Position numbers and translations under genes: made by a program. Below are positions 5,047 to 32,561 of a stretch of DNA of 59,836 bases, in pieces. Under the pieces are notes generated by a model. That model did not search any database. It had not been told where the DNA came from and was given only the letters and a program-made list of their open reading frames with translations. Each line of letters starts with the position of its first letter. Position 1 is the stretch's first letter. The DNA comes from Alistipes sp. (GTDB lineage: Bacteria > Bacteroidota > Bacteroidia > Bacteroidales > Rikenellaceae): NCBI GenBank assembly GCA_017623115.1, contig JAGAPT010000041.1, forward strand, positions 1 to 59,836, read 5' to 3'.

Positions 5047-6981
5047 TTACTCGTTATAGTCGATTTGAACCGCCAGCAACGTCAGGTCGTTGAACTGGGT
5101 TGTACGCGGCAGTGTCACGGTCTGACCGGCCTTCACCGGCAGGGCGTAAATCTGGAACTTCACACGTTTCTCGGCATTCATCTGCAAGAGAATCGTACCA
5201 TTGGGCACCTTCTTCCAGCGCGCCAACGCATTATCAATCGGGCTGCAGGGCAGAGCCAAGACGTAAATCTCGCCATCCGAAAGAGCCGTCACCTTAGCAC
5301 GATGTTCGTTGCGCGGACCCGTCTTATCGGGAGCAGCATGCTGCAGGTAGTCGAAGCCCACAATGTCGGACGGAATATTGCGCAACGTATATTTACGGTT
5401 GCTGTGCAACGTCGCACCATTGGACAACTTCAGCAGTTTATGACCGCTACCCTCGACACGCACAGCCGTCTGCTTCAGATTGGCCACAGCAGCCCCCGAA
5501 GCACGCTTCGCAGCCGGAGCAGCCTTCGGAGCCGGCTTGGCAAGGGTAATCAGTGGTGCATCACTACGGAACGGCAATACGGGCATACCGGCTGCATCGA
5601 ACAGGTTGCCGACAGCCGTCTCGTTGAAACAATAGCGCACAGCCACCGGACGACGCACCTTCTTGTTCCAAGCCAAGAGGCGACCATCACCATCAAACAT
5701 ACCCATGGCGGGCTGGAACACCATCGTCTCATCGGCAATCTCGAGGTGTGCCACCGCATCACCACGGCACTCGATACCGCCCTCGGCATTTTCAAAGGTG
5801 ATAATCGCACGTCCACCCTTGAACTCCACCGACTTCATCGAGGCCTGCTTATACTTGCCCACCTCCTTTTTGTAGACCTCGGCCAGCGCCCAGTTGCCCA
5901 GACGCTCACCCACCGGCTTCTTATAGGGAGGATGAATGTTCGTCACATCGGGCACATGGTCGCTGACATTGACCATGCCCGTATAGGGAACTTGTGCTGC
6001 TACGGCTGCCTGCTGCTCACGCACGAGGGTCTTGCCACCCACCACAGCCTCCTTACCATGGGGTGCCAACTGCACAAGGTAGAAGGGCAACTTGTCGTTT
6101 TGGAACTCATCGCGCCAGCGATAGATCAGTTCGGCATGTTGCTTGGCATAGACCGACGGGTTATAGGCATTTGCACACCCCTGATACCAGATGACACCGG
6201 CCAGAGCCAGGTTGCGCAACGGACGAATCATGGCATTGAACAGACCTCCCTCACGCCAGCCGCTACGCTTCGCATAACGCTGCTTGAAGGCCGTCAAGGC
6301 AGCCTTATCCTGCTGCACATCACCTGCATGCATCCACAACTCAATCGGCGTACCGCCCCACGACGAGTTGATCAGGCCAACGGGCTGCTGCAAATTTTCA
6401 TAGAGGTGACGACCGAAGAAGTAACCCACAGCACTGAAATACTGCGTATCCTCATCGCCACACACAATCCACTCGCCATGGCAGTCGGTTTGGACGTTAC
6501 CCGTGCAGTTTTGCTGCATATTGAACAGACGCATCGAGGGATACTGCTCATCCTTTTCCAGCGACTCGCGCATATCCACGATGCCTCGCACGGCATTCCA
6601 ATTCATATTCGACTGCCCCGAGCAGAGCCATACCTGGCCAATCAAGACATCCTCGATGGTCTCCTCGGCTTTGCGGTTCGTCGTGATGTGAATCGTGTAG
6701 GTCTCGTTCGAGGCCTTCGGAGTCTGCACCTCCACCGACCAGGTGGTGTCGTAGTGCGACTTGGTCTTTACCGGCTCGGCTAACCATGACGGGGCTACCG
6801 TAACCGTCGAATTCGGGTCGGCCCATCCCCAAATCTTAACCGTCGTGTTCTCCTGCAGTACCATATGGTCACCCAAGATGGCCGGCATGCGCAGAATCGG
6901 TTGTGCCGTCGAGGTCAATACCGAGATGACACCAAAGGCCATCAACAGGATCAGGCGTTGAAAAAATCGTTTCATATTCAT
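5047..6981 (-). CDS. Sialate O-acetylesterase-like (SASA family) carbohydrate esterase
   Basis: This 644-aa secreted protein has a signal peptide over residues 1-27. The SGNH-type esterase core starts with LCSGQSNMNW at about residue 120, where the Ser is the nucleophile. It continues with IWYQGCANAYN (block V-like) and DVTNIHPPYKKPVGERLG, whose His belongs to the catalytic pair. Family members remove O-acetyl groups from sialic acids or from plant and bacterial polysaccharides. The last ~150 residues form an extra domain after an Ala/Lys/Pro-rich linker (KPAPKAAPAAKRASG). The start may be Met1 or Met3. It lies between a sialidase-like gene and an FG-GAP gene, so deacetylation of the locus's target glycan is the likely job. 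The exact substrate is unknown. Confidence 0.85.
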   Translation of the reverse strand: MNMKRFFQRLILLMAFGVISVLTSTAQPILRMPAILGDHMVLQENTTVKIWGWADPNSTVTVAPSWLAEPVKTKSHYDTTWSVEVQTPKASNETYTIHITTNRKAEETIEDVLIGQVWLCSGQSNMNWNAVRGIVDMRESLEKDEQYPSMRLFNMQQNCTGNVQTDCHGEWIVCGDEDTQYFSAVGYFFGRHLYENLQQPVGLINSSWGGTPIELWMHAGDVQQDKAALTAFKQRYAKRSGWREGGLFNAMIRPLRNLALAGVIWYQGCANAYNPSVYAKQHAELIYRWRDEFQNDKLPFYLVQLAPHGKEAVVGGKTLVREQQAAVAAQVPYTGMVNVSDHVPDVTNIHPPYKKPVGERLGNWALAEVYKKEVGKYKQASMKSVEFKGGRAIITFENAEGGIECRGDAVAHLEIADETMVFQPAMGMFDGDGRLLAWNKKVRRPVAVRYCFNETAVGNLFDAAGMPVLPFRSDAPLITLAKPAPKAAPAAKRASGAAVANLKQTAVRVEGSGHKLLKLSNGATLHSNRKYTLRNIPSDIVGFDYLQHAAPDKTGPRNEHRAKVTALSDGEIYVLALPCSPIDNALARWKKVPNGTILLQMNAEKRVKFQIYALPVKAGQTVTLPRTTQFNDLTLLAVQIDYNE

Positions 6982-28982: not shown

Positions 28983-29017
28983 AAAAAAAGCCACCGATGC
29001 ATGTGCATCAGTGGCTT
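28983..29017 (-). terminator. Terminator of tRNA-Gln
   Basis: On the minus strand a stem AAGCCAC-T-GATGCA with a 2-nt loop pairs with TGCATC-G-GTGGCTT and runs into T7. Its first base is the last A of the encoded CCA end, so the tRNA and its terminator abut directly. Confidence 0.85.
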
Positions 29018-29090
29018 GGTTGAGCTACCAGGATTCGAACCTGGAATAACAGGACCAGAATCTGTTGTGTTACCATTACACCATAGCTCA
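29017..29090 (-). tRNA. tRNA-Gln, anticodon CTG, CCA end encoded
   Basis: The cloverleaf on the minus strand: acceptor TGAGCTA/TAGCTCA, D stem GTGT/ACAC with loop AATGGTA, anticodon stem ACAGA/CCTGT around loop TTCTGGT (anticodon CTG, reading CAG), variable loop TATT, T arm CCAGG-TTCGAAT-CCTGG, discriminator A, then CCA. The top pair of the anticodon stem next to the loop (31-39) is A-C, a mismatch. Without the CCA the gene is 29020-29090. Confidence 0.93.
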
Positions 29091-29239: not shown

Positions 29240-30508
29240 ATGGGAATCAAATTCCGCCTTACCGTGATGAACTTCCTGCAGTATGCCGTGTGGGGCTCCT
29301 ACCTCACTTCGATGGGTACGCAGCTCGTAGGCATCGGCATGGCCGATAAAATCGGTCTGTTCTACGCCATGCAGGGTATTGTCTCACTCTTCATGCCCGC
29401 CCTGGTGGGCATCATTGCCGACCGCTGGGTGCAGGCACAACGTCTGCTCGGCATCTGCCACCTCCTGGCCGCCCTCTTCATGGCCGGTGCCGCCTTCAGC
29501 ATCAGTGCCTCGGCACCGCACTACAACTATTGGCTCCTTTTCAGCCTCTACTCGCTCAGCGTAGCCTTCTACATGCCGACCATCGCCCTCTCGAACTCGG
29601 TCGCTTACAGCGTTCTCGAGAGCAACCACATGGATACGGTGAAGGTCTTCCCGCCCATCCGCGTATGGGGCACCGTGGGCTTCATCTGCGCCATGCTCTT
29701 CTGCGACTTCGCCGGTTTCCAGAAGAACTACATGCAGTTCTACCAGAGTGCCGTGCTGGGTGTGATGTTGGGCCTCTACGCCTTCTCGCTCCCCACCTGC
29801 CCGACCAACACCTCGGGCGAGCAGAAATCGCTCGTCGAGGCACTCGGCCTGCGAGCCTTCTCGCTCTTCAAGCAGAAGAAGATGGCCCTGTTCTTCATCT
29901 TCTCGATGTTGCTTGGCGTATCGTTGCAAATTACGAACGGCTTCGCCAACCCCTTCATCACCTCGTTCCGTGAGATTCCCGAGTTCGCCTCGACCTTCGG
30001 CGCGAACCATGCCAATGCGCTGATTTCGCTCTCGCAGGTATCCGAGACCCTCTGCATCCTGCTCATTCCCTTCTGCCTGAAACGCTTCGGCATCAAGAAT
30101 GTGATGCTGATGGCCATGTTCGCCTGGGTGCTGCGCTTCGGGCTCTTTGGCGTAGGTAACCCGGGGGGCGGTGTTTGGATGTTCATCCTCTCGATGATTG
30201 TCTATGGTATCGCCTTCGACTTCTTCAACATCTCGGGCTCGCTCTTTGTCAACAACGAAACCGACACCTCGATTCGCTCGAGTGCGCAAGGTCTCTTCAT
30301 GATGATGACCAACGGCGTGGGTGCCACCATCGGTACGCTCGGTGCACAGGCCATTGTCAACCGCTTTGTCTACACCGAGACGACCCCCATCGCACAAGTT
30401 GCCGGATGGTCGACCTCGTGGTTGATTTTTGCCGGATATGCCCTCGTGGTGGCTCTGCTCTTTGCTGTGGTCTTCCAGTACAAGCACAACCCCGAAGCAA
30501 CTCGTTAA
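29240..30508 (+). CDS. Nucleoside permease, MFS (NHS family)
   Basis: This 422-aa inner-membrane protein has about 12 hydrophobic helices. It matches the nucleoside:H+ symporter (NupG/XapB) group: FLQYAVWGSYLTSMGTQL at the N-terminus, GIIADRWVQAQRLLG in the first cytoplasmic loop, VKVFPPIRVWGTVGFICAM, and the late QGLFMMMTNGVGATIG segment. It imports nucleosides with protons. It is a single gene with a -7-like TACATTTG at 29171-29178 and its own terminator. Confidence 0.88.
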   Translation: MGIKFRLTVMNFLQYAVWGSYLTSMGTQLVGIGMADKIGLFYAMQGIVSLFMPALVGIIADRWVQAQRLLGICHLLAALFMAGAAFSISASAPHYNYWLLFSLYSLSVAFYMPTIALSNSVAYSVLESNHMDTVKVFPPIRVWGTVGFICAMLFCDFAGFQKNYMQFYQSAVLGVMLGLYAFSLPTCPTNTSGEQKSLVEALGLRAFSLFKQKKMALFFIFSMLLGVSLQITNGFANPFITSFREIPEFASTFGANHANALISLSQVSETLCILLIPFCLKRFGIKNVMLMAMFAWVLRFGLFGVGNPGGGVWMFILSMIVYGIAFDFFNISGSLFVNNETDTSIRSSAQGLFMMMTNGVGATIGTLGAQAIVNRFVYTETTPIAQVAGWSTSWLIFAGYALVVALLFAVVFQYKHNPEATR

Positions 30509-30554
30509 AGACGGCGGCTGTTCTATTTCAGCCCAAAGGTTCTCTTTATCGTCC

Positions 30555-30590
30555 AAAGCCTGCCATTTTCCATGGCAGGCTTTTCTTTGG
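30555..30590 (+). terminator. Terminator of the nucleoside permease gene
   Basis: An 11-bp stem (30555-30565 AAAGCCTGCCA with 30673-like partner at 30573-30583) with a 7-nt loop, followed by TTTTCTTT. Confidence 0.85.
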
Positions 30591-30682
30591 CACGCTATTT
30601 GCCCTATTTTTGTTCAGCTGCGGCACAGCAACCGCAGTGAGGTTTCTTCATTTATTTAAGTTTGGGTTAGTAGTTTTTGGGA

Positions 30683-30740
30683 GGTGCAACGCCTCCCGAG
30701 GATAGCAGGCAGTTGTGAAAACTCCCTGCTGTCTTTTTTT
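30683..30740 (+). ncRNA. Putative structured RNA element, copy 1
   Basis: The 19-nt block GGTGCAACGCCTCCCGAGG (30683-30701) leads into a hairpin: 9-bp lower stem (30701-30709 with 30725-30733), a C-C mismatch, a 4-bp upper stem AGTT/AACT and loop GTGAA, then T7. Copy 2 at 30980-31033 has the same block and the same fold with compensating base changes. Each copy ends like an intrinsic terminator. No family is recognised. It may be the 3' end of a small RNA or part of an intergenic repeat. Confidence 0.5.
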
Positions 30741-30828
30741 GTATCGGGTCTAAAACTACTTTCAACCGGTTCATGCAGCAAGCCTCTGCTCGCTTGTGGG
30801 CAAAGGGCTCTACGAGCCTATGTCGCTA

Positions 30829-30871
30829 TTGGCGAATGGCTATTCGTGCAAGCTCGATAGCCATTCGTCAA
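30829..30871. repeat. Long hairpin, 15-bp stem
   Basis: Arms 30829-30843 and 30857-30871 (TTGGCGAATGGCTAT and its complement) pair over 15 bp with one G-U pair and a 13-nt loop. A second short hairpin AAACTAC/GTAGTTT follows at 30879-30895. Both lie between the two RNA-like elements, in a 30591-31045 region with no convincing gene. Confidence 0.7.
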
Positions 30872-30979
30872 CACCACCAAACTACTTTGTAGTTTCCTTT
30901 GCCCTCCTGCACTCGGAGCCTTTGTTCTGCTCCTGCGGTCGTTAGTAGTCTGTATGAGGTTTTGCGTTGTATGAAGAGC

Positions 30980-31033
30980 GGTGCAACGCCTCCCGAGGGC
31001 GAGCGGCAGTCGAGAAGACTCCCGCTCGTTTTT
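30980..31033 (+). ncRNA. Putative structured RNA element, copy 2
   Basis: The block GGTGCAACGCCTCCCGAGG recurs at 30980-30998. The hairpin has a 7-bp lower stem CGAGCGG/CCGCTCG (31000-31006 with 31022-31028), the same C-C mismatch, upper stem AGTC/GACT and loop GAGAA, then T5. Compared with copy 1 both sides of both stems change together, so the fold is conserved and the sequence is not. Function unknown. Confidence 0.5.
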
Positions 31034-31045
31034 GTTTCATGTCAC

Positions 31046-31081
31046 AAAAAAAAGGAGTTCAAGGATTTCTCCTTAAACTCC
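31046..31081 (-). terminator. Terminator of purB
   Basis: On the minus strand a 12-bp stem (GGAGTTTAAGGA with TCCTTGAACTCC, 31054-31065 with 31070-31081, one G-U pair) with a 4-nt loop is followed by T8. A GGGAGTTTT-type repeat lies between it and the purB stop (31082-31123). Confidence 0.85.
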
Positions 31082-31123
31082 CAAAAATGCTCAAAACTCC
31101 CAAAATTCCCAATCCGGAATCCG
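31082..31123. repeat. CTCCCAAAA-type intergenic repeat
   Basis: Units CCCAAAAATGCTCAAAACT, CCCAAAATTCCCAA and two copies of TCCGGAA; this is the C-rich arm of the repeat family seen at 622-717, 28769-28834 and 57065-57133. Confidence 0.5.
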
Positions 31124-31134
31124 GAATCTAAAAA

Positions 31135-32484
31135 CTACTTTCTAAACACACCCGTATAGGTCGAGGGCGACAAGGCACACAACTCCTCCTTCACGCTTTC
31201 GGACACCGCCAGTGTCTCGATAAAGGCCTTAATCGACTGCTCGGTGATATGCTCGTTCGTGCGGGTCAGAGCTTTCAGTGCCTCATAGGGTTTCGGATAA
31301 CCCTCACGACGCAGGATGGTCTGGATACCCTCGGCAACAACGGCCCAGTTCTCCTCCAAATCTTGCGCCAAGGCCTCCCGATTCAGCAGCACCTTGCCCA
31401 AGCCCTTCATGAGCGACTTCAGAGCGATGAGCGTATGAGCCATCGGCACACCCACATTGCGTAGCACGGTCGAGTCCGTCAGATCACGCTGCAGGCGCGA
31501 AACAGGCAATTTTCGCGAGAGGTGCTCGTAGATGGCATTGGCGATACCGAGGTTGCCCTCGGCATTCTCGAAATCGATCGGATTGACCTTGTGCGGCATG
31601 GCACTCGAGCCCACCTCACCGGCCTTAATCTGCTGCTTGAAGTACTCCGACGAGATGTACATCCACATATCGCGCGCCAAGTCGAGCAGAATCGTATCGA
31701 TACGCTTCAGGGCATCGAACATCGCAGCGAGGTTATCGTAGTGCTCAATTTGGGTCGTATACTGCGAGCGGCTCAAGCCGAGCGTGTCGTTCACAAAGCC
31801 ATTGGCAAAGGCGACCCAATCGCGCTCGGGATAGGCAGCATGGTGGGCATTCATGTTACCCGTAGCACCACCGAACTTTGCGGGCACGGGAACAGCCTTC
31901 AACTGCTCGATCTGCTTATCCAGACGCTCGACATAGACCATGAACTCCTTGCCCAGAACCGTCGGCGAGGCCGGTTGTCCGTGCGTGCGTGCCAACATCG
32001 GCACCGACATCCACTCCTCGGCCATCGTAGCAAGCGTTGCACGCACCTCCTCGAAGGCGGGATAGAGCACCTCCTCAAGAGCCTCCTTCATCGAGAGGGG
32101 CACGGCCGTGTTGTTAATATCCTGCGACGTCAGGCCGAAGTGCACAAACTCCTTGTAGGCCTCCAAGCCGATTTCATCCATCTTCTCCTTGAGGATGTAC
32201 TCAATGGCCTTCACATCGTGGTTCGTCGTGCGCTCAATCTCCTTCACACGCTCGGCCGAGGCGGGCGAAAAATCGAGGTAGAGCGATCTGAGGTCGGCAA
32301 ATTTCGCCTGATCGACCGCTGCCAACTGCGGCAACGGCAATTCGCACAGAGCGATGAAGTATTCGACCTCGACACGGATGCGGTAGCGAATCAGTGCCTG
32401 TTCGGAGAAATAGTTGGCCAGCGGCTCGGTCACGCGACGATAGCGACCGTCGACGGGAGAAATAGCTGTCAAAGGAGTTATCAT
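31135..32484 (-). CDS. purB: Adenylosuccinate lyase
   Basis: The ATG at 32484 (MITPLTAISPVDGRYRRVTE) gives 449 aa, close to the E. coli enzyme. The fumarase/aspartase superfamily signature is GEVGSSAMPHKVNPIDFENA near residue 290. TSQDINNTAVPLS and ARTHGQPASPTVLGKE are the other active-site regions. It cleaves SAICAR to AICAR and adenylosuccinate to AMP in purine synthesis. The E. coli-like start SPVDGRY and MPHKVNPIDFEN mark the PurB subgroup. An upstream extension of 20 residues runs into the promoter region and is not used. Confidence 0.97.
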   Translation of the reverse strand: MITPLTAISPVDGRYRRVTEPLANYFSEQALIRYRIRVEVEYFIALCELPLPQLAAVDQAKFADLRSLYLDFSPASAERVKEIERTTNHDVKAIEYILKEKMDEIGLEAYKEFVHFGLTSQDINNTAVPLSMKEALEEVLYPAFEEVRATLATMAEEWMSVPMLARTHGQPASPTVLGKEFMVYVERLDKQIEQLKAVPVPAKFGGATGNMNAHHAAYPERDWVAFANGFVNDTLGLSRSQYTTQIEHYDNLAAMFDALKRIDTILLDLARDMWMYISSEYFKQQIKAGEVGSSAMPHKVNPIDFENAEGNLGIANAIYEHLSRKLPVSRLQRDLTDSTVLRNVGVPMAHTLIALKSLMKGLGKVLLNREALAQDLEENWAVVAEGIQTILRREGYPKPYEALKALTRTNEHITEQSIKAFIETLAVSESVKEELCALSPSTYTGVFRK

Positions 32485-32531
32485 ATTCAGCAGATTGTTG
32501 TTTAATTTCGGCACCAAAATTACAACAAATA

Positions 32532-32561
32532 TTGATAAAAGCATAATTTTCGCTACCTTTG
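32532..32561 (+). promoter_or_regulatory. Promoter of the DUF4834-mlaE-mlaF operon
   Basis: TTG (32532-32534), a 19-nt spacer and TACCTTTG (32554-32561). On the other strand TAATTTTG (32515-32522) is a likely -7 box for purB, so the two operons are divergent. Confidence 0.7.

Follow-up and report, generated by a model that had tools for sequence, protein, structure and literature searches.

A probable stand-alone small RNA gene of the sigma54 type in Alistipes and its family

The stretch of DNA analysed here (the window) comprises 59,836 nucleotides (nt) of an Alistipes genome (assembly GCA_017623115.1, contig JAGAPT010000041.1). Between a nucleoside H+ symporter gene (29240-30508, + strand; PF03825) and the convergent purB gene for adenylosuccinate lyase (31135-32544, - strand; PF00206 and PF08328) it contains a gap, 30509-31134, which an earlier sequence-only reading had rightly described as a gene-free island carrying two hairpins of one design. 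Our analysis suggests that this gap probably holds a stand-alone sigma54-type small RNA (sRNA) gene of about 125 nt (~30614-30740), found in Alistipes and its family. The first hairpin (copy 1) appears to be the tail of this uncatalogued small regulatory RNA gene and the second (copy 2) a shortened copy of that tail. The most conserved and most informative part, 30588-30670, lay outside the coordinates of the earlier reading.

All parts of the predicted gene lie on the + strand. It begins with a putative sigma54 (-24/-12) promoter box, TGGCACGCTATTTGC (30588-30602), which agrees with the sigma54 consensus, TGGCAC-N5-TTGC, at 10/10 positions. From this sigma54-type promoter, as judged by its conserved sequence, transcription would start just ahead of a hairpin, at about 30614. 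The RNA would then consist of this 5' hairpin (GCTGCGG/CCGCAGT, 30617-30638), the stem of which is kept in relatives; an exposed core of 31 nt, AGGTTTCTTCATTTATTTAAGTTTGGGTTAG (30640-30670), which is near-invariant and predicted to be mostly unpaired; a small hairpin, GGGAGG.../...GCCTCCC (30679-30697), whose sequence varies between species; and an intrinsic terminator hairpin with a C-C mismatch, a GTGAA loop and a T-tract (30698-30740). The fold of the whole RNA from the window gave a z score of -4.7.

An exact 20-mer scan of genome contigs found at least 118 stretches. Among the 80 matches listed the titles were Alistipes, Tidjanibacter and Rikenellaceae, with one 'Bacteroidales bacterium', and drawing on these 80 we collected 117 distinct sequences; the 20 nt of the scan word are conserved by construction in this set, and statements about identity rest on the other searches. 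Of the 115 relatives with enough upstream DNA, 96 had a sigma54 box scoring at least 8/10 at some point within the preceding 90 nt, compared with 2.9% of letter shuffles, and the 87 boxes at the expected place had the GG in 99-100% and the TTG in 100% of cases. In 84 of these 87 relatives the box was followed by a 5' hairpin with a stem of at least 5 bp (225/870 letter shuffles), formed by 39 different pairs of arms, length variants included. As this hairpin began 14-16 nt past the box in 80 of the 84, the predicted RNA would form a covarying hairpin almost from its first base onward. The host genome contains rpoN (PF04552), as do 12 of 13 genomes of the genus with the host included, and it encodes two clear sigma54 activators, of which one has a receiver domain, besides two weaker AAA+ matches. 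In a search for enhancer sites upstream of the box, about 20 of 107 sequences showed an enrichment of A/T-rich words, and no clear palindrome emerged.

For the 3' part, a covariance-model alignment was made in which 103 sequences were kept and 14 of the 117 were dropped as single-hairpin variants, mobile-looking copies or sequences with long or unusual tails (L014 first copy, L108, L112, L113, L115, L118, L123 first copy, L125, L130, L141, L152, L168, L190 and L193). In this alignment 14 of the 15 terminator pairs showed changes on both sides with pairing kept; for the variable small hairpin the alignment was too gapped for a pair count. Because their arms covary, the 5' hairpin and the terminator are best understood as RNA structures. 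At the level of sequence the locus has its own promoter, an intrinsic terminator, an intergenic place and compensatory changes in structure, as looked for in a stand-alone sRNA gene, and, for a sigma54-dependent one, a -24/-12 box at fixed spacing together with rpoN in the genome.

These results bear directly on the two hairpins first noticed. The block of 19 nt that precedes them has the same letters at 30683-30701 and 30980-30998, and has no further match in the window at up to 3 mismatches (0 in 100 shuffles, which excludes a chance repeat); genome-wide there were three additional sites only, each with 3 mismatches. Both hairpins fold into a lower stem, a C-C mismatch, a 4-bp upper stem and a 5-nt loop followed by a T-tract, with z scores of -5.8 and -3.4 and an equally good fold in 0/200 shuffles for each, and the compensating base changes between them are real. 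The description of the two as paralogous RNAs needs correction, for the copies are unequal: in copy 1, part of the 19-nt block forms the right arm of the additional hairpin at 30679-30697, whereas copy 2 (30980-31034, + strand; stem 30994-31034) is a 5'-truncated duplicate of the 3' module with the terminator hairpin intact and without the GGGAGG partner, the core, the 5' hairpin or the promoter. When scored with a covariance model built for the wider family, copy 1, itself among the sequences that went into the model, reached 94.3 bits and copy 2 30.0 bits. For copy 1, the 103 aligned relatives give good support to two further proposals of the sequence-only reading, that selection acts on the RNA structure and that the hairpin is the terminator-bearing 3' end of a small RNA.

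The distribution of the gene was determined by several searches. With 30500-31150 as query, 36/36 congeneric genomes and the host genome matched (one, G011, over 25 nt only), whereas among genomes of other families 1/24 matched, outside the part belonging to the RNA gene. The best conserved stretch was 30633-30678, upstream of the two hairpins. Among 30 loci retrieved by similarity, the window included, 29 had the inner 28 nt of the core, TTTCTTCATTTATTTAAGTTTGGGTTAG, without any change, and the remaining locus had one inserted T. The antisense 19-mer of the core, searched with up to 3 mismatches, was matched exactly in 36 of 41 genomes of the genus, and 2 more had a one-base length variant. 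Across 295 genomes of the order, matches were confined to the host genome and two genomes of another genus of the same family. Of the protein clusters neighbouring the gene, none recurred in over 5 of 21 loci, and this lack of a conserved neighbour fits an RNA acting in trans. Some genomes have two full copies; in one of them (G053) these lie 15 kb apart, each with a box-like sequence. Judged by the open reading frames (ORFs), the DNA between the two copies carries a SusC/SusD-type operon, and purB lies on the far side of one copy. The idea that this pair represents the attachment (att) ends of an integrated element was rejected, both being full copies with their own boxes.

Beyond the family the signal was much fainter. 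A covariance-model search of Bacteroidales, which the sequence-only reading had proposed, was run with the wider-family model on 198 genomes of the order; it matched the host genome, two genomes of the same family and four of other families, the last being weak matches (E 9e-5 to 9e-4, the E-values being rough). All four of these cores contain CAU, which is complementary to AUG; in three it occupies one and the same aligned position, and in G269 it is a few nt off. These other-family cores, such as TTTTTCATAGGTTAAG in the tandem copies of G284 and TTTTCATAGGTTTAAG in G174, also look like complements of start regions. The two G284 loci (L317 and L318) contain a distant relative in several tandem copies, with TTTTTCATAGGTTAAG as seed and a terminator-like hairpin after each. 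In G235, again from another Bacteroidales family, a locus (L319, ~1721) has GTTTGGGTTAGTAGTTTTACAGAATTTGTTTCTGG as in Alistipes with a different 5' half, which is possibly a swap of seed halves or a horizontal transfer.

Phage and plasmid collections had no match to 30580-31060, and with 30600-30745 at E <=10 there were only five short weak matches in the phage collection. On a contig from a viral collection (L118, IMGVR_UViG_3300032167_000198; 5503-5619) we found the core, a small hairpin and a further hairpin that resembles the terminator but has no T-tract; this may be a copy of the small RNA carried by a phage. Two genomes, G029 and G104, share one identical variant copy that has no sigma54 box (L112, 1084-1167, - strand, and L268); a nearby ORF at L112 matches phrog_14584, a phage protein family of unknown function, and two other ORFs there match none.

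What the RNA might do is suggested by its core. The complement of the core, CUUAAAUAAAUGAAGAAACC, resembles a Bacteroidota start site and, rendered as CUUAAAUAAAUGAAGAAA, corresponds to a typical translation start of this phylum. In Bacteroides thetaiotaomicron the sRNAs GibS and FopS bind start-codon regions and block translation (PMC7366714, PMC11697453). Since the core reads as antisense to the kind of start region usual in Bacteroidota, we infer a similar mode of action, giving its pairing step about an even chance: a sigma54 activator would switch the gene on, the core would pair with the start-codon regions of target mRNAs, and loading of ribosomes would be blocked. The likeness to GibS and FopS would lie in a stand-alone sRNA of the Bacteroidales having a Rho-independent terminator and a conserved unpaired part, which in GibS and FopS is complementary to start-codon regions and here reads like the complement of such a region; FopS is multicopy. 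The present RNA differs in having a 5' hairpin before the core, in the lack of an Rfam match, in belonging to Rikenellaceae, and in a pairing with start regions that is here deduced from the core sequence. Where FopS has a sigma-ABfr and GibS a PM2 promoter, a sigma54 box was the promoter type looked for and seen here.

Several observations weigh against this picture of a sigma54-switched RNA that pairs with start regions. The sigma54 box scored below 8/10 in 19 of the 115 sequences; four of these (L028, L037, L086 and L166) have an evident variant at the usual place, whereas some low scorers, including L103 and L104 from another genus and the mobile-looking copies, have no box at all. The core match was absent in 3 of the 41 genomes of the genus (G042, G049 and G118). 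Near matches to the antisense 19-mer, the gene itself set aside, were at the level of the control in the 41 genomes (63, compared with 54 for the reversed control), and the 18-mer had 4 matches in the host genome, the gene itself included, compared with 3 in the control. As no extended target stands out above control, targets, if any, would use part of the core. We fetched 28 of the 63 near matches, picked for an ATG at the right place, and 15 of the 28 opened an ORF of at least 100 amino acids; because the core itself resembles a start region, this is no evidence of targeting. Finally, 31 near-invariant nt are long for a seed and would fit a protein-binding site too.

The last point leads to the possible, if rather unlikely, alternative that the core is a binding site or decoy by which the RNA titrates a protein. 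Near-invariance over a length unusual for a pairing seed, the lack of an outstanding extended complementary target and the retention of the mismatch and the GTGA-type loop of the terminator hairpin in most relatives would all be in keeping with such a role. However, the core looks like the complement of a start region of Bacteroidota, the core has changed with CAU retained in the weak relatives from other families, and no protein family is linked to the locus.

The DNA behind the terminator has an organisation of its own. Behind copy 1 lies a short inverted copy, AAAACTACT (30752-30760, + strand), of the RNA segment 30669-30677; with 9 nt and a score of 18 it is below our cut-off of 24, and in relatives such copies reach 28 nt. 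It is followed by an imperfect palindrome of about 185 nt with a junction of arms (30761-30945), which ends in CGTTAG and which we call element E. By its sequence, copy 2 represents the truncated 3' module, placed after a single E; it goes together with this palindrome and could serve as a second terminator for read-through RNA. Among the 109 loci with at least 550 nt of downstream DNA, an inverted copy of an RNA segment after GTTAG (score >=24) was present in 48, nearly always directly behind the terminator; CGTTAG occurred within 600 nt in 47, a motif of only 6 nt, so that some of these 'ends' are chance; the two occurred together, with a slightly lower score cut-off for the inverted copy, in 38; and a direct duplicate of the 3' module was also found in 38. 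Of these features the CGTTAG end and the duplicate are present in the window, with the inverted copy under the cut-off. At L125, a Tidjanibacter locus, the core itself has an inverted copy: some 80 nt past it, behind the terminator, 20 nt are perfectly antisense to it, and a partial direct copy comes further on.

Forty E elements of 165-270 nt were delimited and fall into several sequence groups. A cross-shaped predicted fold, with a base stem, a junction bearing a short hairpin with a 3-4-nt loop, a long central hairpin and another short hairpin, was shared by 31 of the 40, compared with 5/1000 shuffles that kept dinucleotides, by a criterion fixed after the single-sequence folds had been seen. 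RNAalifold on a MAFFT alignment of 38 of them (L019 and L027, which have an extra insert, left aside) gave no pairs and so no alignment-based covariation support. A suspected conserved apex loop, YAAR, was present in 22/40 by a strict test and is not general. No ORF of more than 50 codons was found in E. Among the loci viewed there were one or two E units per locus.

Such a palindrome invites the view that E, together with the duplicated tail, was left behind by a mobile or single-stranded-DNA-recombined element, like a repetitive extragenic palindrome (REP), a miniature inverted-repeat transposable element (MITE) or an integron-type cassette with GTTAG as core site, that targets the RNA gene. 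We regard this as doubtful. The shared fold, the flanking inverted and direct copies of the target, the small number of units per locus, the recurrence of GTTAG at boundaries and the copies of the RNA core on a viral contig and beside a phage-family gene (L112) would suit it, and the sequence-only reading had also considered a mobile intergenic element. That suggestion found no support, the palindrome between the copies being met, in searches by similarity and end motif, only beside the RNA gene. The E of the window matched at the RNA gene in 18 genomes, and in G031 a 40-nt match lay within ~1 kb of the gene; the sole match away from the gene (G006:C61, 33 nt) had no motifs of E or the core. 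With all 40 E as queries, no match away from the gene was found in 346 kb of flanks plus the window. The end pattern GCNGNCGTTAGTAG is not rare, its reversed control matching more often, and is informative only through inspection of each locus; in 101 genomes it gave 30 loci, of which 23 had the core nearby, 2 a core with an inserted base and 2 a place near a contig edge, with 3 due to chance. Dispersed copies, as expected of MITE and REP elements, were thus not found in searches by sequence similarity and end motif. Nor was there a recurrent integrase or transposase cluster among the 21 loci, single loci not having been searched for integrases, and proteins that we take to be recombinase-like lay near 3 of the 21. 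The motif GTTAGTAG does not fit the integron core, GTTRRRY, and the absence of a long ORF within E points the same way.

Two related ideas were rejected. An invertible terminator, with the RNA segment x and its inverted copy x' as inverted repeats, is spoken against by the single orientation of the terminator in all 103 aligned copies, and an integron by the lack of a recurrent integrase cluster beside the gene in the 21 loci. E resembles REP and MITE palindromes and integron attC sites in being an imperfect palindrome with a recurring short boundary motif and repeated units; it differs from them in being tied to one gene, in the lack of a recurrent recombinase and in its core motif.

Our own suggestion for E, which is a speculative one with the odds well against it, is a locus-bound structured module, made up of E with the inverted and direct copies, that is either a switchable 3' extension or a self-copying fold-back palindrome. 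As a switch, x' would pair either with x or with the closing stem of E, giving a second, long RNA in which part of the small RNA is masked. As fold-back DNA, the palindrome would copy pieces of its own gene into itself and so rewrite the 3' end of the RNA lineage by lineage.

Two simpler explanations of the locus are highly improbable. The first is that the hairpins are mere terminators of the flanking convergent genes, without any RNA gene. The place of the island between such genes would allow this, but the same module, box and core included, recurs among differing neighbour genes, and conservation peaks upstream of the hairpins. The second is that a small gene begins in the conserved stretch on the other strand (ATGAAGAAACCT...), since the core, read on the minus strand, makes a good start site for Bacteroidota. 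Its frame, however, ends at 5-33 codons in 79 of 117 sequences, meets no stop in the DNA examined in 37 and lacks its start in 1, with no common length, and the DNA past MKKP evolves as the hairpin and sigma54 box of the other strand; on frame lengths and pattern of evolution this gene was rejected.

The statement that no known family fits the hairpins holds for Rfam 15: the Rfam search, run at the gathering cut-offs and at E <=10, gave only chance-level matches in the region and no family. GibS and FopS gave no Rfam match to the window at E <=10, the presence of either model in that Rfam copy being unchecked. BTnc231 (RF04180) gave a sub-threshold match to the distant relative L286 only (22.7 bits, with a cut-off of 80.4; E 0.42), sharing with it the 5' UUUUUCAUA and the terminator loop CGUGAG, and none to the window itself. 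Among Pseudomonadota, sigma54-dependent sRNAs include Qrr of Vibrio, CrcZ of Pseudomonas and GlmY of enterics. The candidate gene is like these in being an sRNA gene behind a -24/-12 promoter, the sequences having been compared through the Rfam scans only.

Literature searches found no paper on this RNA, none linking a small RNA of Alistipes to sigma54, and no described small RNA for the Alistipes lineage. A survey of human microbiomes describes thousands of candidate RNAs; the one Alistipes motif named in excerpts of it is located upstream of ribosomal protein L20 and is not this RNA; the present RNA may have been listed, unnamed, in its tables (PMC8040213). The part played by sigma54 outside Pseudomonadota is called less explored in one abstract (PMC12316311). 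The Alistipes lineage, of common gut commensals, appears to have a nearly universal small RNA with a candidate sigma54 switch and a putative anti-start-codon seed. If true, start-codon pairing, a strategy known from Bacteroides, would also be used in a second family, where it would be linked to sigma54. The repeated presence of the E palindrome behind one gene, with pieces of that gene copied in both orientations, is unexplained. Outside the gap, a tRNA-Gln (CTG) gene lies at 29017-29090 (- strand), upstream of the transporter gene.
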